Below are positions 38,503-64,000 of a DNA stretch of 64,000 nt, piece after piece. The stretch comes from Dysidea avara. Taxonomy: Eukaryota > Porifera > Demospongiae > Dictyoceratida > Dysideidae. Position 1 is the stretch's first letter, and each line of letters starts with the position of its first letter. Both the position numbers and the translations under genes were made by a program. The notes beneath the pieces were generated by a model. That model searched no databases. It was given only the letters and a program-made list of their open reading frames with translations, and was not told the origin of the DNA. The stretch lies in NCBI RefSeq assembly GCF_963678975.1, contig NC_089273.1, positions 10,540,614 to 10,604,613 of the forward strand. The letters are read 5' to 3'.

Positions 38503-40662
38503 TTTTATTATTATTTTTATTATTATTGTTAATTAGCAAAGCCCACTAGAGGCAACACGCTAATGAGCATTACAATCACATATCATATATCGTCGCTCTA
38601 CTTTGAGGGGGAGGGCTTCTACGATCAAATCTAATCTTTCGTCACAATCCCAAAGAGTTTTAGACTTGAACAGTGAACCGGGTGCTTCTGCCTGGCTGAC
38701 AGCATTGCCTTTAGCAGAGCAGGGATTCCACCTGATGAAGCAAGAATTTTGGGATGCCTTGCATCTTAGATACGGCTGGAAGCTCCTGAACATACCCAGT
38801 CACTGTGTTTGTGGGGTCCCATTTTCTGCGGATCATGCTATGATTTGCAGACATGGAGGCCTCACATTTGTTCGCCACAATGCTTTGCGAAACATCACTG
38901 CAGAGTGGCTTTCCAAGACATGTCATGGTGTGGCCCTTGAGCCACCTTTACAGCCACTTACTGGGGAGATCATTGCACCTAAGACTGCCAACTGTCAGGA
39001 TGAGGCTAGGGAAGACATACATGCTAGGGGATTCTGGGGGCAGCGGCAAAGTGCCTTTTTTGAAAGTAAGGGTGTTTCATCCTAATGCACTGAGCTACTG
39101 CAACACCAGTGTCCCCTCTTTGTATCGACGTCACGAGGCACAGAAGAAACGTGAGTATGGTGACCGTGTCAGAGAGGTTGAGCAGGCCTCCTTCACTCCC
39201 CTTGTGTTTGCGACCACTGGAGGTATGGGAAGGGAGGCAATAGTTTTCTACCGTCGTTTGGCTGACCATCTATCTCGCCGCGGCTCTACTAGTTACAGTC
39301 AGACTCTGGCTTTTATCCGATGCACATTGTCTTTTTCTCTACTTCGGTCAGCTACAATGTGCATACGTGGAAGTAGGTCCATCTCGCATCGTTCCTCTGA
39401 TGCCTCTCCTGAGATGGGCCGCATTGATGAGCACAGGGACTTTTAATTAAACTTTCAGCAATCTGGTCCTTTTTATTCAGTTGTCCAGCACGTGCTTTCT
39501 TTGTGCTGGGGGTGGTAGGCAAGGGCAGTCCATCCAGCCTGGGAAAAAAAAAACTTACAGCGTTCTAAATGTTTCAAGATCTATTGTGTCGATGTTAGGA
39601 ATTTGAAAGGAGTTCCATTGAATAATTGTTTGTGGGAGGAGGGAGTATTTGTACACAACAACTCTTGTTTGCAATTGAGTTAGCTTGAGAGGATGTTGAG
39701 CACAGGTGTAGGACACTGGAGTTGGTGACGGTAAGCAATGATCAGGTATTGCTAGTAAGTTCCTGATAATCTTGAATAGGAAGGTGAGTCTAGCAATTGT
39801 TCTTCTGTTTTGAAGTGTAGGCCATTCAAGACTGGTTAACATATCTGTGATGCTATCATGGTTTTGGTTAGATCTGTGCCAGGGTTTGTTCAAAATGAAG
39901 CAAACAATGCGGTGTTGAATCATTTCTAGTTTACTAGTACTAGTGTGATGATAGGGGTCCCAGATGGCTGAGCAGTACTCTAATGATGGTAAGAGCAATT
40001 GTTTGTAGATGTGTTCTTTAATTTCTGATGGTGCATTGTGGAGATTTCTTTTTAAGAATCCAAGGAGTCGATTTGCCTTGTTACAGATGTAATTGATGTG
40101 AGGATCCCATGATAGTTTGTGGTGGAGATGGATTCCAAGGTAATTGTGTTCTACTACTGTAGCCAGTGGAATGTCGGACATTTTGTATGTGAAGGTACTC
40201 TTTTTATGGTGAAGGTACTCTTTTTATGGTGAAGGTACTCTTTTTATTGTGTGTTGTTATCTGTAAAATTTTACATTTGGAGATGTTGAATTCCATCATC
40301 CAGTCAGTTGCCCATCTTGTTAGTGAGTTTAAATCATCTTGAAGTATTTTATGGTCTTGTGGTGTTTTAATGGTTTTGTAAATAAGAATATCATCTGCAA
40401 AAAGACGGATCTCACTTTGGATGTTGGCAATGATGTCATTGATATAAATCAAGAATAGAACTGGTCCAAGAACAAACCCTTGGGGAACACCAGATGTTAC
40501 ATCACAAATGGATGATTTAGAACCTTCTACTATAACTTGTTGTGTGCGACCATGAAGAAAGGATTCAAGCCAGTGTAATACATTCCCTCTTATTCCATAG
40601 TGCCTTAGTTTGTAGAGGAGTCTTGAGTGAGATACTTTATCAAAAGCTTTAGAATTAATCAT
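38503..40662 (-). pseudogene. 5'-truncated CR1/L2-like LINE, ORF2 RT and C-terminus
   Basis: The minus strand reads from about 40662 down. RT blocks are FDKVSHSRLLYKL, SGVPQGFVLGPVLF, the catalytic FADD box (LFADDILIY) and SKCKILQ. After a frame break around 40190-40250 comes a 208-residue C-terminal frame (40181-39555) with LEYCSAIWDPYHH and YKYSLLPQTIIQWN. The break coincides with three tandem copies of GTGAAGGTACTCTTTTTAT. The 3'UTR and TAA/TTA-rich tail lie at 38503-38580, split from ORF2 by a retroposon at about 38585-39552. 5' truncation removes the endonuclease. Same family as the 19009-19303 fragment. Confidence 0.85.
38585..39552 (+). pseudogene. poly(A)-tailed retroposon fragment encoding a PD-(D/E)XK-like retroelement C-terminus
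   Basis: Two overlapping plus-strand frames (38603-39085 and about 39066-39446) encode one protein. It has a Cys/His knuckle (CVCGVPFSADHAMICRHGG), RHNALRNI, an EAREDIHARGFW block, then VRVFHPNALSYCNTS, FTPLVFATTGGMGREA and SATMCIRGSRS. I recognise this motif set from retroelement polyprotein C-termini common in cnidarians and sponges. The R-x-D ... D-V-R-V pattern suggests a restriction-like nuclease. The frame breaks at GCCTTTTTTGAAAGTAAGG, at the expected D-V-R-V. A run of A at 39543-39552 marks the 3' end. It sits inside the 3'UTR of the minus-strand LINE, so it inserted later. Confidence 0.65.
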
Positions 40663-40669
40663 GCAAGGC

Positions 40670-53959: not shown

Positions 53960-55510
53960 AGATAATTAAAGCATTGCTATAAGAAACTCTCCCCGTTTTC
54001 TCTAGCCCGGAGCTATCCATGATGAAATAGAACACACACTATATACACGACCCTAGGTTTACCTGCTACGACTTGCTAGTCTGACGTGGGTGCCAGGCCA
54101 GACTGAGAAGTTTTGGGTGAGTTAAGCAACGAGAGGGCATTGTCTTCGCATCAAACCCGATTATAAAACTGTCCTGAATTGATTTGGTCGCCGGGATGAT
54201 TACGCGAGACTACCAGTGCAGCATATATACGCATGTTTCTCGTACTTTAATAGACTTCATTCTGGGAACACAATCTCCTTACAAGTAGCTAGATTTCATT
54301 GGTCAGTGATGGCTACATCATAAAACTAAAAAAATAAGCGCACCATGCTGTCTCATAATATACTTTATGGCGTTTAAATTTTCACCTAAGCGCCCTACTT
54401 AAGTCCATACAAGCATTGCAGCACTGCTACTTTCAAAGAGGTCGACTAGCAGTTGCGTGTGAACGTTTCTGTTAGTAATTTAGTATTGAAGTGACTGAAG
54501 TTTCCTGACAGGAGCTTTGCGAATAAATTAAACGGACCGAGTATTCAACTGGCTGGACATTGACCGGCTAAGGTGAGTATGGTTATGAACATTAACATTT
54601 TATTACAACCTGGGTACTACATCCTTTTTGCTATCGTGCATGTAGGAACGAGCAGGAAGAGCTCTCACTTATTGGACGGTGATAGTGCACAACGTTCGTT
54701 CTAGGTGCTCGAGCTGAATTAGTCATTACCTGGATTGCAGTACGTCTCAACATACAGCGTCATTTAGTCCAGGGTTAAGCAGTCCACTGAGGTATGAGTA
54801 TTGGTAAAATGTAGTATTGTATTAAACTACGTGAGGTGCTTGTGTGTGTTAGTTGCAAGTAATAAGTGTAGCTAAATCCGAAGCCTGCATGAGCCCAAGC
54901 CACTCATACTTGCCAATGACAGTGAAAAAAAAACAAAAAAACAATGCATTTTTGTAGGGGTGTGCATTTAATGGAAGTGCATTTAATGGAAGTGGTTCAC
55001 TTAATAATTAATGCCTCTTGCACAAACTTAATGCATGCAATTTAAAATCATTGCAAAGCGTTTACAGACTACACTTAATGCTTGTAGTTTATAAGCAACA
55101 TATTATTTACATGTAAAGGTGCCAAATGGTGTGTCTTCAGTTATAAATGTGAATAATCTATGCTTACAAATAAATTTATTGTCTTGTAGGAACATTGATA
55201 TTCAAACTTGAGTACTAGACCTTAATTACCTTACATCATAATACAGCATTGAGCATTAGTTCAAGCAGGCCATTAAGGTATCAGATATTGAGAATAATTA
55301 TTCTTTGTTTTATAGTTTATGATGTTACTTTTATAGTTGCAACTTTTGTAGTTGTTTTGTTGCAGTTATTCATTTTGTAGTTGTTGTTACTCATTTCATT
55401 GTTGTTGAATCTCTTATTGTACAGCTACATACTGTCTGCATCGAAATAGAACTGCAGTTTATTTTACTACAGGAACTATATACTTTCTACAGCAGTGTTG
55501 GGAGTATCAA
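53960..55510. other. no gene assigned; possible spliced leader region of the downstream element
   Basis: No protein frame. Several donor-like junctions occur (GGCTAAG/GTGAGT at 54571, CACTGAG/GTATGA at 54790), as do acceptor-like ones (TTGTAG/GAACATT at 55189, TACTACAG/GAAC at 55472). A non-coding 5' leader for the Helitron gene or another transcript is possible but unsupported otherwise. Confidence 0.25.
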
Positions 55511-55540
55511 AGTCAGATCAGTTAAAAATTGAAAAGGTGA

Positions 55541-56398
<858 letters not shown>

Positions 56399-56400
56399 TG

Positions 56401-56540
56401 CTACTTACTTACTTAATTGATAGATTACTTTAGTACTTAATTACTTGCTTAGTTACTTACTTAATAACTCATTTAATCACTTATTTGCTTGTTCACTCAT
56501 ATGCTTATTTACTTAATTACTTACTTAATTTCTAACTTAC
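56401..56540. repeat. degenerate (ACTT)n/(TTACTTAA)n tract
   Basis: Imperfect ACTTACTTAATTACTT-type repeats directly 3' of the GT tract. The rest to 56791 is AT-rich and without features. Confidence 0.7.
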
Positions 56541-57247
56541 TTTACTTATGCTGCTGTACTATTTAATATTAATAATGATCACATTTTTATGTTTCTCTTG
56601 TACTTATATATAGCATTCTCTTATATCCTGTATTAGATGCATTGGTATCCTATATTTCATTGTGTGTTACAATTACTTCCACTATGCTAAGATAAAATTG
56701 TTTCTTGTCTCTGTATACATATACAGCATGTTTACATATGCATACAGTTTAATAACATATGCACATTTTCTACTTTATGTGAAGCACAATTATGGTTAGT
56801 AAAGCCCAGAAGAGAAGAGGGAAACGACAACAACAACACAAAGAAAAGCAAAAAGATGAAACGGAACCTGTTGAAGATTCAGAGGTTAATGTTTGGGAAC
56901 AGCGTAAAGATAAAGTAAACCTACAAAGACGCATGAAATATGTGGCTTCACCAAGTCGAAAGATTGCCAGGTCAAACTATTATCAACTGCACAAGTCATC
57001 AATCAAGGAGCATATGCGACATTTCTACTCCATCAATCGGGTACCTATAAGCCAAAAGATTAGAGCAGCTTATACTGAAAACCCTTTGCCGAGGAAAAGA
57101 AAAATGCAAGAAAGTTATGCCAAGCACCCTACAGAAAAGCAACAGAAGGTGCTTGATAGATATCATGCCAATCCATCACGAGCCAAGAAATATGTAAGTG
57201 AAAAATACAAGTTAGATCCATCACCAATAAAGCGAATGATGCGCAAA

Positions 57248-57606
57248 AGATATGCATTAAACCCATCACCAAAGAGACGAAAGGTTCGTCAAAGATATGC
57301 ATTAAACCCATCACCAAAGAGACGAAAGGTTCGTCAAAGGTATGCAGTAAACCCATCACCAAAGAGACGAAAGCTTCGCCAAAGGTATGCAGTAAACCCG
57401 TCACCAAAGAGACGAAAGTTTCGCCAAAGATATGCATCAAATCCATCCCCCAAAAAACTAAAGCTTCGCCAAAGATATGCATCAAATCCATCCCCCAAAA
57501 AACTAAAGCTTCGCCAAAGATATGCATCAAATCCATCCCCCAAAAAACTAAAGCTTCGCCAAAGATATGCATCAAATCCATCCCCCAAAAAACTAAAACT
57601 TCGCCA
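57248..57606 (+). repeat. in-frame 45-bp repeat array inside the Helitron gene
   Basis: Eight or so near-identical 45-bp units encode RQRYAxNPSPKxxK repeats. The last four units (about 57426-57605) are almost identical to each other, with CCATCCCCCAAAAAACTAAA shared. Flanking units on both sides keep the Y-x-x-N-P spacing but have diverged. Confidence 0.92.
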
Positions 57607-60600
57607 AAGATACAAATTAAATCCATCACCAACAAAAGCAAGGGTTCGAAATGCATACAAGAAAAATCCCTCTCCTATACGAAGAAGAGTCCTTGCTGCT
57701 TACCACCACCATCCAAACCCTTTGATCAAGCGTATATTAAGGAAATATCATCTGAACCCATTTGCTGTTAGGCGTTGTGCATTACTATCCTACCATTCTA
57801 ATGTTGAGCTTAATAGATATATAAGACGTAAAAAGTACACCGAAAATCCAATACCTGCTAAAGATAGGTCAAGACGACGGTATGAACAGAACCGAAATAA
57901 GCTTCTACAGCAAGCAATGGAGAGAAGATGTGCTACTGTGACTGCGTTAAGTGTGCGTAATAAGTACAATCGTATGTTTAAGCGCAAAAGGAATTATCAT
58001 GGTACATCATCAGAGTATGTAGAAAAGCTTGTTAGAAAAATGGGCATAAGAAACAGATCTGCGAATACAATAAAAGCAGGGTTTTTGGTGAAGTCTTGTC
58101 TACAGCAACTTAGTTATTTCAAACATAACTTTGTGAAGTGTTTGGAAAAATTACGTAATAACTTAGATGCATCACTTATGAAGCAAACTGAGGATGATTC
58201 AATTTCACTGTGTGGTGTTAGTTTGCATACGTCATACACTGAGACATTTTTCCCTCAGGCCACCTACAACCAAGATGCATTTAATGATGATGGCAGCATA
58301 AAGTATGAAGAGTTTCCAGGCTATTCAAGCAAGTACACCATTGCAGGCAGGGATGTTTCAACATGGGAATGTAGTTATGACCCACCATGGTGCAAATTGG
58401 AAGAATCAGAAATAATCGAGGGTAAACTTCAGATCATCTATTGTAAGATAACTGAATGTGCACCTAATGCTGCTCACAGGTACATCCAGCATATAGACGA
58501 TTGCACCAATCAGTTAACAAAAGAGGAGCTACTTCAAGGTCATCCATTATGTTGCTATACAGAATCTCCTCCCTGCGATTCTCCACTGTTATATTTGCGT
58601 GTGCTAGCACCTCATTTTCCAGACATACGACGTGTGGTGCAATTGTTGTATGAAGTGCGCAGACATGATAGAAAGATCACGGAAATTGAGCACGCTTTGC
58701 AACATGGAGACCTGGATAAACTGTCTGAGATTACCGACATTGCTAAGAGCAATCGATTGAGACAGTTTCAAATAGACAACCAGCCATTGATTGAAACTCA
58801 AATCTATGAACAACACAAGGCAGCTTATGATAAGTTTTATGAAAGGTGTTTAGATGTTGCAAAGTACCCTTGCATATCATGTGACAAGTTGTGCTACCGA
58901 CGGGAATGTTCACACTTAGGTAGTCTACGTAGTTTGCCCAACAGCTGTGAGTGGCAGGCCTTGATGGATTACAATACGCGTAGACCAGAGTACAACGATG
59001 GACTTCCTGAAGGATTTATATGCAAATATTGCCTAAATAACTTTAGACAAGGAAAATTACCACCAAGGTGCATACTCAATAGTCTGCAGTTTGGAGACAT
59101 TCCACAAGAGATATCACAACTAAATGCTTTTGAAAAAATATTAATACAAAGAGCAAAATGTTTTCAAACTGTCAGTAGAATGGGTACAGTTGCGAAAAGG
59201 CAATTGCCTGCCAGCCACAAAATTCAGAAGGTTATTGGCACTACGTTCCACTTGCCATTACCAATTGAAGAAACTTTGAACAAATTGCCTGACCCACAGC
59301 AAGCTCTTCCAAATCATGGGGAACTTTTTATTTTAATACGAAGTTTACCTAGTAAATCTAATGTCATATGGCAGGACCTTGTAGATATCAATAAAGTCTA
59401 CAATGCCCTACTAAAGCTAAAGGAAATCAATCCCCTGTATGCTTTAATTCAGCTTCCTGGAGCTCCAGAAGATCTAGATATTGGTAACCGAATTGATGAA
59501 GGTTCTTATGGAGAACCACTTTCAACATCTGGAGAGGCTATGGTAGAAGAAATTGCTGAACATGAGGAGCAATCTTACTATGAGCAATATACCATTAATC
59601 CATTGCACGCCCCAAGGGAAAACAAGAAGGCCACGGCACTATACCAAATGCTAAAAGTAAATGAAGCCCCTCTTGATAGTCGTATGAAAAACTTGGATAT
59701 GTTGTGTTTTCCAGATTTATACCCACATGGAATTGGTGGACAGAGGTGTCAACGAGAGGTGCCATTAAGCGCAGCAGAGTACGTGAAGTGCATTTTGCAA
59801 TCGCGTGATCCACGATTCAGGATTAACCAACAGCTCATCTTTTTCTTGAATAACCAAACAATACTGCGACAAATAGCAAGTGGTATTTACCATAAACTAA
59901 AGGTGATTAGGCCAAGTGAAAAGCTAACAGCTGCCCGCTGTCTAGAAATGTTGTCATCTGAAGAGCTGGAAGGAAACCTAACAACAATATTTGCACGTGT
60001 TAGAAATACTGAATCATTTTGGACCAGACATCGAAATGATCTTAATTGTATGTCATTTCATTATGGTCCTCCTACATGGTTCATTACTTTAAACCCTGGT
60101 GAATGGTTATGGGAGGATCTTCGTACTTACTTAAAAATTGTAAATCCCAGTTTTGCTGACATGTCTATAGCTGAGATGATTGCCACTGACCCGGTGTCCA
60201 GTAGTAGATTTATTGACAATAAATACAAGGCAATTTATGATTTCATTCTAAGTGACAGCCAGCCTTTGGGTCCTGTTTGTGCTCTTGGTGCAAACCGTGA
60301 ATACCAAGGGAGAGGATTGCAACACAGTCATGCTGAGGCATGGGTAGAAGGAGCACCAATAATTGGTGAAAGCACAGAAGAAGAAATATGCGAATTTGTA
60401 ACCAAGTATGTCACCTGTCACATCCCCGACATTACACTCAGCCCAACACTATATGAACGAGTGATTACATTTCAGCAACATAAGTGCAATAATTATTGTT
60501 TACGCAGTAAGAAGACTAATGCAGGAGTAAAAAAAGTATGTAGGTTTGGCTATCCCAGGCCTTAGCGTGAAAATTTTGTGCTTCGAAATGTGGTAGATGC

Positions 60601-63189
60601 TGTTGCTGGAAGAAAATCCTTAAAGACTAATTCTCGTCTTTATGATCTACCACGCGCTGCAAATGAAATGCGCATCAATGATTATAATCCAGCCATGCTA
60701 CTCGCATGGCAGGGAAACATGGATATTCAATTTATTGGTGAGAATTCATCTGTTCTTAACTGGTATTGTACCAAGTACTGTACAAAACCAGAAAAAAGCC
60801 ATGCCCTTCAAGAATTTGATGACATAAATAAATCTACCAAATCTATCACAAGTAAGTTATGGAATTTTGCAATGAAATCCATATCACATCGAGAGTGTGG
60901 TGCTTTGGAAGCATGCGACACACTTCTTGGAATACCACTCTTTGTTACTGATCCCAATACCACAATCCGGTGGGTTGATGTTAATATGGTGCGTAGCAGG
61001 CGGTTGAAAGAAAAGTCCATCATAGAAGGACTGGAAGGTGAGTCATCTGACATATTTTTCCCCTCATGGGTAGACTCGCACTACCCCAACAGACCAGAGC
61101 AACTGGAAAATGTGTGCCTTTATAATTTTTTAGCTTATTATGACTTGGTTCAAGCAGAACCAATTCGTTTAGCAACATACTATCCTTTTAAAGATGGTTT
61201 TTTGAAAAAAAGAACAAGGCCTTACTTAATTAATCATTACAAACATAACATAGACCAAGAGGTAGAGAAGTATTATTATGCAATACTCCTTTTGTTCAAG
61301 CCTTGGCGAAATAGTGAAACTTTGATTGGTAGCAGTGAAAGTTTCCAATGTGAGTTTGAAAATTGTCGAGAGCAGTTACCGGATGCTGTAAATTATCACA
61401 ATCGACTACAGCAGATGCAGAAACGAGATGAAATTGCCAGGGAACAGATTGACAAGCGACGAACTGAAATTGAGCAAGAGGAGGACGGCACTACAGAAGT
61501 TCATGCACCTGATACACTACTGCATGCACATACTGAAGCCCAGGATGCGATGGCTGAGTTCGAGGAAGTTGTGGCTAATGAAGACATCGTTGATGTGGAG
61601 TCCATGATTGAAAGTTTAAATGAAGATCAAAGAAGGGTGTTTGATAGGGTAAGCACTCATTTGCAAGCCCAGCATTCTTCAGCAATATCTAATCATCCAC
61701 AACCACTATGTATGTTTGTTAGTGGTTGTGGTGGTACAGGTAAAAGTTTCTTGATAAAAACTTTAAAAGCATGGATCCATTCCTCATTGGAAAAGCATGC
61801 TGCTATCACAGCACCTACAGGAATCGCTGCATTCAATGTGAATGGTCTAACGATTCATCGCTTACTACAGCTGCCTGTGGAACATGGCAAGACACCTAAG
61901 TATCGTTCACTATCAGATGAAGCCATTAAGATTGTCAGACAGAAGTTGCAACAATTGGTGCTTTTGATTGTAGATGAAGTCTCGATGGTCAGCCATGTCA
62001 CCCTACTGTATATTCATCTAAGACTGACAGAAATATTTAACACAGGTGACATAAAAAATGGTTGGTTTGGCTGTAAGAATATTTTAGTGTTTGGTGATTT
62101 GTTACAGCTACCACCAGTGTTTGAGCAGCCTGTGTATACCACACTTACTAGTGCTACTGTTCATAAGCATACAGACTCTCCAGGTGGTGTGGACATATGG
62201 CAGCTGCTCTTTGAATATGATGAGCTAGTTATCAACATGCGCCAAAGAGATAATAGGCAGTTCACAGAATTGTTAGGAAGAGTTAGACTGGGAAAACTTA
62301 CCGTGAAAGATATAAAAACCCTTAATCAGCGCAAGTTATCCCTTAAGAGTCCTTCAATTAGTGGGAGAATGAAAGAAGTTGTAGATGAGCTCCTAAAGCT
62401 ACCAGAAGACACTGTTTGCTTGCTGCCGACTAGGAGCATGTGTACAGAAATCAATATCGAAGTTTTAAGCCGTCTACCAGGTGAAGAGTACAAACTTGTA
62501 GCGGAAGACAGTGTGGACTGTTCACGATCCATTTTACAGAAAGTGAAGGCCAAGTTGACCAAATGTAGTGAAGACTGCACCCAGACTGCAGGATTAGAGA
62601 ATATTGTTCATGTAAAGATTGGATGCAAAGTTATGTTGCGCCGCAATATTGATGTTTCTCAGGGTCTAGTTAATGGTGCTATTGGGACAGTCCAGTCCAT
62701 CCAGCGTAGTATTGAAAAAGCCAACAAGGTAGAGTCAATAACCATTAAATTTCAAAATAATCAACAACATTTGTTAAAGAGAGTGAGTACAAAATTTGAA
62801 GTATTTGACAGAGCTTTTGTGATCAGATCACAATTTCCAATAACTGCTGCAAGTGCCATCACCATCCACAAGAGTCAAGGGCTTACGTTGAAGCATGTAG
62901 TAACAGATATAGGAAACACAGTGTTCAGCTGTGGTCAGGCGTATGTGGCTTTGTCTAGGGTAACATCACTTGATGGCCTATATTTGATAAATTTTGATCC
63001 TAGGTCTGTCAAGGCCTTGGATTCAGCAATACTTGAATACAACCGGTTGAGGCTAAAGCATCGTCCAACTCTAGCACAATTTTCTGTCACCAAACAAAGA
63101 CCCAAAAAAGTAGATGATATTCAGTGGTGCACAATTCCATGGACATCTGCAGTTCAAAGACCAGCAGCACAAGCCATTACTTTAAAAAG

Positions 63190-64000
63190 GAAAGGATTTG
63201 TAAATAAAGATGGTGTATCCAGTTATGCAAACTCAGTAATGCAGTGTGTGCTATTTTCACCAGTTGTGCGTAGAGTGATCTTAGATGGATGTGATGGAGC
63301 TATTAAAAGTATGTGCAGACAGTATGTAAGCAATGCTGACACCACTTTGGATTGCACAGAATTACGTCAAGAGCTAGGCAGTCCATTTGATGGATCTACT
63401 TCTCAAGATGCTTTAAAGTTTCTAATATTGATAATGGTAACTTCTTTTGAAGTTCACTTGCCAATGCATCATACAGTCAATGTGCACACTAGATGTCGAC
63501 ATTGTGGTAGAAAAGATGTGGACACATGGACTGAAAATGTTGTAGAATTACATTTTCCAGAATCATGTAAAAGTATAAAATTTGATGATCTAATGAAATT
63601 TTCTTTAGGGTGGATGGAATCTGATAGTTCATGCAAGGACTGCCATGGTATTGAAGAGGTTCGTAAGGACATTATCAAAGCAGGTAGTGTGCTAGTGTTT
63701 AGAATGAATGTATGTCCATTAATTAAAGGTAAAACTTTTCCACGAAAGACTAGTGTCACTGCAGTATCAAGTAGTACATTTGTGATAGATGGTCAAAAGT
63801 ACAAGTTAATGGCAGCAGTTAGTGAGGTGGCTACTTCAGCACGACCTGGGTATGAGTACAAGGCTATACTGTCAATAAGTGGAAAATGGCTACATTGCAG
63901 TGATCTTTCTACCAGTGTAGAGAATTGGCCACGTGGTTCAAAGGGTGTGTATTTGTTATTTTATCATGCTGTATCTACTGTACCACCTCCAAAAGATGCA
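63190..64000 (+). other. USP (peptidase C19)-like domain fused to the helicase, catalytic Cys replaced
   Basis: After the helicase the frame continues GFVNKDGVSSYANSVMQC, which lines up with the USP Cys box G-L-x-N-x-G-N-T-C-Y-x-N-S-x-x-Q-C. The Cys position is Ser (AGT, 63221-63223). Further on are two C-x-x-C pairs (CRHC, CKDC) placed like the USP zinc ribbon, then FRMN, YKLMAAV, PGYEYKAILS in place of the usual G-H-Y-x-A, and VYLLFYH near the end. The His is therefore also not where expected. The fold assignment rests on motif order. Protease activity is not predicted. Confidence 0.6.

Follow-up and report, generated by a model that had tools for sequence, protein, structure and literature searches.

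Two classes of deubiquitinase (DUB), OTU and VTD, are known in Helitrons, the rolling-circle transposons, where according to the accessible parts of PMC9741609 they substitute for one another. The same source describes VTD domains of zebrafish Helitrons that cleave ubiquitin and are thus active DUBs, and its authors propose that proteins required for transposition are spared from degradation. For the OTU proteases, a role in chromatin signalling or in cleavage of Rep/Helicase was proposed earlier (PMC4067079, available in part). Pseudo-DUBs, in which the active site is lost, make up about 13% of DUBs and serve as allosteric activators or scaffolds, as far as the accessible text of PMC10919355 goes, and for Trichomonas a C19 domain is mentioned next to a different kind of transposase (PMC2836005, available in part). 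A ubiquitin-specific protease (USP, peptidase family C19) in a Helitron was not found reported in the full-text literature searched, which was covered by titles and beginnings of abstracts and included neither most subscription papers nor the Repbase reports; it is new as far as this literature shows.

The element described here, from the sponge Dysidea avara, resembles the OTU Helitrons and Helentrons in joining a Rep-helicase protein (RepHel) to a ubiquitin-type cysteine protease, but the protease has the USP (C19) fold, is present in tandem and includes a conserved dead copy. With the VTD Helentrons it shares a transposon-encoded deubiquitinase-type domain, two of which occur in one zebrafish element; there, however, the domain belongs to another DUB class, the elements carry an AP-type endonuclease, and both VTDs of the tandem element react with ubiquitin probes (PMC9741609, accessible parts). 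We consider it likely that the present element is a Helitron whose RepHel ends in a deubiquitinase module of two USP domains, of which the second (USP2) is predicted to be active and the first (USP1) to be a conserved pseudo-USP acting as its binding or regulatory partner.

Coding frame of the Helitron

The window analysed is a stretch of 64,000 nucleotides (G000:C2:10540614-10604613) of a genome assembly of 550.8 Mb in 108 contigs, and its last 7.2 kb are Helitron coding region on the forward strand. The first part of the RepHel frame (56783–60562) contains a DUF6570 domain (56.6 bits in the profile match, cut-off 24.3) followed by the Helitron_like_N or Rep domain (59780–60331; Pfam PF14214, 68.6 bits, cut-off 28.9) with H-x-H at 60320, and stops at a TAG codon (60563–60565). 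From 60566 the frame is open up to the window end at 64000 and includes the motif WYCTKYCTK (60761–60787, position read from the frame), a PIF1-like helicase domain (61616–62305; Pfam PF05970, 92.9 bits, cut-off 25.9) and then USP1. We take H-x-H and WYCTKYCTK to be the histidine and tyrosine motifs of Rep. The TAG codon lies between the two, inside Rep, and the window copy is therefore probably dead as a transposase. The combination by which Helitrons are recognised, an HUH Rep and a PIF1-type helicase in one protein, is found in a single frame in two other copies and interrupted by the TAG in the window copy. The first-pass annotation had pointed to OTU proteases or an endonuclease in some animal Helentrons; membership of that class is not supported here, as no endonuclease domain was found in the stretches scanned, which comprised the frames outside the linker described below.

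The N-terminus of RepHel (56783–57900) consists of an array of basic repeats of about 15 residues, of the NPSPKRRKVRQRYA type and the NPSPKRRK type, that vary in number and sequence from copy to copy. Directly 5' of the element frame lies a long CA/GT-rich microsatellite (55487–56404), and a fragment resembling the reverse transcriptase of non-LTR retrotransposons was recognised by eye at 39555–40668 on the reverse strand.

Two USP domains in one frame

The USP-like domain proposed earlier behind the PIF1 helicase is indeed present in the same frame. It reads from 63182 to 63976, the previously given start at 63190 being out of frame, and matches two Pfam profiles, UCH_1 at 27.0 bits (cut-off 22.2, partial match) and UCH at 23.9 bits, which is exactly the cut-off of 23.9 and extends along nearly the whole profile (positions 6–254 of 254). 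Taken alone, USP1 thus barely clears the curated thresholds; the corresponding domain of a second, divergent element family reaches 25.1 bits against the same UCH cut-off. A search of the PDB with a profile of three USP1 sequences matched no USP, phmmer with USP1 as query gave no match, and a single-sequence structure model of USP1 alone had a pLDDT of 34, a value worthless for judging the fold. The assignment of USP1 as a USP comes from its near-cut-off Pfam scores together with its kinship to the domain that follows it.

That domain lies beyond the window. When the assembly is read past position 64000, the frame continues through a linker of 119 residues in total, whose start occupies 63977–64000, into a second USP domain and then a stop codon. 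USP2 (G000:C2:10604950-10605756, window-equivalent 64337–65143, forward strand) scores 73.1 bits against UCH and shows the Cys, His and Asn boxes GVSCYANS, SGHYT and ANDS, so that both a C19 profile match and the catalytic residues are present; in the second family, on contig C4, USP2 reaches 53.3 bits (cut-off 23.9). It matches the solved structures of cellular USP21, USP2 and USP15 (best E value 5e-8) and shares with these enzymes the Cys/His/Asn residues and two CxxC pairs; it differs from them in its small size (about 265 residues) and in its fusion to RepHel. On these features, an active ubiquitin protease is the most likely reading of USP2. USP1 and USP2 are 25% identical (pairwise BLAST E value 8e-25) and are of common descent.

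Alignment of the two USP1 and two USP2 domains of both families reveals all three catalytic features (the Cys, the SGHYT box, and either ND or DD) in the USP2 sequences and none of them in the USP1 sequences. In the window copy the catalytic Cys position of USP1 is occupied by a Ser codon, AGT (63221–63223), as had been noticed from the sequence alone, PGYEYK (63845–63862) stands where USP2 has its SGHYT box, with the catalytic His gone; across the two USP1 sequences, Ser or Thr replaces the catalytic Asn/Asp. USP1 of both families is thus devoid of the Cys, His and Asn/Asp of the catalytic triad. A reading of USP1 as a serine protease was dropped because the His and the Asn/Asp are missing too. 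The other landmarks reported for the domain, the motif GFVNKDGVSSYANSVMQC, paired C-x-x-C motifs and a terminal YLLFY, were all found in USP1; the CxxC pairs correspond to C105/C108 and C151/C154 of the domain (63494–63643), and these four cysteines are invariant across all four aligned domains.

A motif search among the fetched loci, which permitted Ser or Cys at two adjacent positions, counted a copy under two locus identifiers once and covers those loci with a recognisable motif (destroyed motifs being invisible to it and several listed fragments outside the count), gave Ser in all 13 copies of USP1 and Cys in all 14 of USP2, every one from a single genome. The Ser codon is AGT, with AGC in one copy, and the Cys codon TGT, with TGC in one. 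One heavily decayed locus (L047) has Ser at the Cys position in what is left of USP2, and the only matches to USP1 there were cross-matches to USP2.

Proposed role of the domain pair

USP1 lacks the catalytic residues and is under purifying selection (see below), and a non-protease role is therefore likely. This much of the earlier proposal, which saw in the domain a ubiquitin- or partner-binding module rather than a protease, can be kept; the picture of an element with a dead domain only cannot, since a USP2 with the catalytic residues in place follows. By analogy with the VTD and OTU proteases of Helitrons, we infer that USP2 would cut ubiquitin off the transposase itself or off host proteins of replication or repair that sit at the rolling-circle intermediate. 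No longer cleaving, USP1 would most likely bind ubiquitin or dock on USP2, and such binding or docking could tune the activity or the chain preference of its neighbour. A dead DUB fold retained as a scaffold or allosteric partner is what the accessible text on pseudo-DUBs describes (PMC10919355); here, by comparison, the dead and the intact-looking domain sit side by side within a single transposon protein. Tentatively, the pair may be pictured as an intramolecular pseudoenzyme and enzyme, in which an inactive USP, constrained about as tightly as the helicase, switches or targets the adjacent, predicted active USP and thereby directs the removal of ubiquitin to the site of rolling-circle replication. 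If true, the conserved dead/intact pair would provide a natural example of pseudo-DUB regulation in compact form, within reach of experiments on just two small domains.

A rather unlikely alternative is that the tandem USPs act mainly in cis, USP2 processing the RepHel polyprotein and USP1 providing a fold or a spacer. A linker between the domains would fit this reading, as would the naming of Rep/Helicase cleavage as a possible task of the OTU proteases (PMC4067079) and the statement that viral DUBs are often polyprotein processors (PMC9741609), both taken from the accessible parts of these sources. However, Gly-Gly is absent from the linkers of both families, and linker length is not conserved, with 119 residues in the window-family copy A and 34 in copy F of the second family.

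Selection and history of the two domains

Between the window copy and copy L18, dN/dS is 0.114 for USP1 (bootstrap 95% interval 0.066–0.185), 0.138 for the helicase part (0.107–0.176) and 0.296 for USP2 (0.201–0.434); among 1000 bootstraps, the USP1 ratio was as high as that of USP2 in 2 and as high as that of the helicase in 270. Three further pairs of the window family with L17 or L18 gave 0.110–0.135 for USP1 and 0.278–0.311 for USP2, dS being about 0.40 in the USP1 comparisons that yield 0.11–0.135. These values support purifying selection on USP1. The helicase part of L17 compared with that of L18 has a ratio of 0.97, as expected because both copies are dead. In the near copies A, B and C, where changes are few, the USP1 ratios are 0.48 (8 changes) and 0.58 (9 changes) and those of USP2 0.37 (11 changes) and 0.43 (12 changes), the pair A–B differing by one change each in USP1 and USP2. 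Comparison of copies F and L22 of the second family, where dS is saturated (1.6–1.7), yields 0.277 (USP1) and 0.290 (USP2). Neither the near copies nor the second family repeat the contrast. The apparently tighter constraint on USP1 than on USP2 therefore reflects in effect a single split, that of the window family from L17/L18, which are now broken.

The two families are 31% identical in USP1 and 33% in USP2, and USP1 compared with USP2 gives 21–28%. In a tree of nine domain sequences without outgroup, USP1 stands apart from USP2 with support 100/99, and the division by element family is the same within each half; on the USP2 side the fork joining F and L22 has the lower support of 89/91. Two groups with mirrored topology place the loss of catalysis before the family split; most likely, therefore, the domain was duplicated and the active site lost before the families diverged.

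It is improbable, on this evidence, that USP1 is a functionless, decaying remnant, a duplicated domain that lost its active site and is merely carried along. The loss of all three catalytic residues, the disruption of many copies by stops and frame breaks and the ratios of 0.48–0.58 in the near copies would agree with decay, but at a dS of about 0.40 the USP1 ratio is not above that of the helicase, open frames and the CxxC cysteines are retained in both families, and catalysis was lost earlier than the families separated.

Gene capture by Helitrons is known (PMC6431247, available in part), and the first-pass annotation had assumed a domain acquired from a host gene. That the module is a passenger from a recent capture of this kind is nevertheless very unlikely. 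USP2 has 34 matches in its own genome, the best of them outside these elements reaching an E value of 8.8e-4 over 55 residues, in a search that took host genes with introns exon by exon and from which a donor could escape; the matches at this E value sit where the UCH profile also matches. So weak a best match gives no sign of recent capture and no close host relative. The module moreover occurs in a single frame in two families that are as divergent in these domains as given above. A stronger USP2 match at C14:11226349 proved to be a decayed element of the same kind. Scanning of viral and prokaryote contigs with the USP alignment gave 6 and 7 pattern matches, respectively, with no confirmed relative among them, and PHROGs gave no match.

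The window ends inside the module, as might be expected if USP1 were flanking host sequence joined by chance read-through, a case of negligible probability given that the same fusion recurs in copies on C2, C8 (two), C14 and C15 and, in divergent form, on C4. The domain hence belongs to the element, as first proposed. The two copies on contig C8 are free of the stop codon of the window copy, and Rep, helicase, USP1, linker and USP2 follow one another in one open frame, 2769 residues long in one copy and 2798 in the other. In the divergent family on C4 the frame (2095 residues) lacks the N-terminal part and comprises the helicase and both USP domains. Dispersal is evident from 28 genome matches to the Rep stretch, belonging to several families. 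When the flanks of copies are compared, shared sequence extends for kilobases, and neither clear ends nor an insertion site emerge; one apparent element end adjoins, as judged by eye, a MITE-like sequence.

Related Helitrons with an OTU protease

Three distant elements among the 28 Rep matches were examined. Two of them, on C13 and C3 (L029:1829-7294 and L030:1016-6481), have an OTU domain C-terminal to RepHel, in the place where the USP pair stands here, scoring 35.4 bits on C13 and 37.3 bits on C3 (cut-off 23.3); on C3 a single stop separates the OTU frame from the one before it. In the third, on C15, the frame stops after the helicase, and no protease was found in the two of its three long frames scanned, with about 640 bp fetched beyond. 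The occurrence of a USP at the position at which related Helitrons of the same genome carry an OTU would, if the interpretation holds, be comparative evidence that deubiquitination as such benefits rolling-circle transposons, and USP would be the third DUB class recruited by them, after OTU and VTD.

A candidate HDV-like ribozyme 3' of the coding region

Downstream of the USP frames lies a block of about 100 bp (L010:1166-1256, window-equivalent about 67553–67643) that resembles an HDV-like ribozyme. It is also present in L012, L014, L015, L018, L027 and L039 and, elsewhere, in L033. Nine of 11 genome matches to the block follow a USP-Helitron copy and share its orientation, at distances of 1.4 to 5.6 kb by coordinate arithmetic. 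An HDV descriptor (double pseudoknot, P1–P4, C in the P4–P2 joint), based on the consensus of such ribozymes and written after the sequences had been seen, fits seven of the nine element-linked blocks and the L033 block; it also matches L034 away from its block, which we take as chance, and has no match in three single-base shuffles of 322 kb. In seven aligned blocks, 97.0% of the pair cells are standard and five pairs are changed on both sides (shuffles give 1.8, sliding the structure no more than 3); further pair types number 8, not above shuffles (8.0). L033 alone accounts for the both-sided changes in P2, and those in P4 separate the L010 and L015 rows from the other element-linked rows. 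Rfam gave no HDV match to the block, its miRNA and other matches being dismissed as below gathering scores, and the literature searched by titles and beginnings of abstracts describes no Helitron with an HDV-like or self-cleaving ribozyme. The block is a candidate ribozyme whose RNA may cleave itself.

The core of the putative ribozyme occurs at 22 sites genome-wide, eight of them at these elements, and a reversed control gave none. The core in L033, the sole one examined of the 14 other sites, directly precedes a non-LTR retrotransposon with endonuclease and reverse transcriptase. The position just before such retrotransposons is a known place of HDV-like ribozymes, and the Helitrons may have picked up the ribozyme from a retrotransposon context.

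Among the fetched loci, L032 contains a COX1-like mitochondrial sequence inside the nuclear assembly. Translated with codes 4 and 5, its frame seems to fit code 4, as judged by what we take to be the landmarks of COX1; that code would be in keeping with a sponge or a cnidarian. The neighbouring stretch is presumably ND1.
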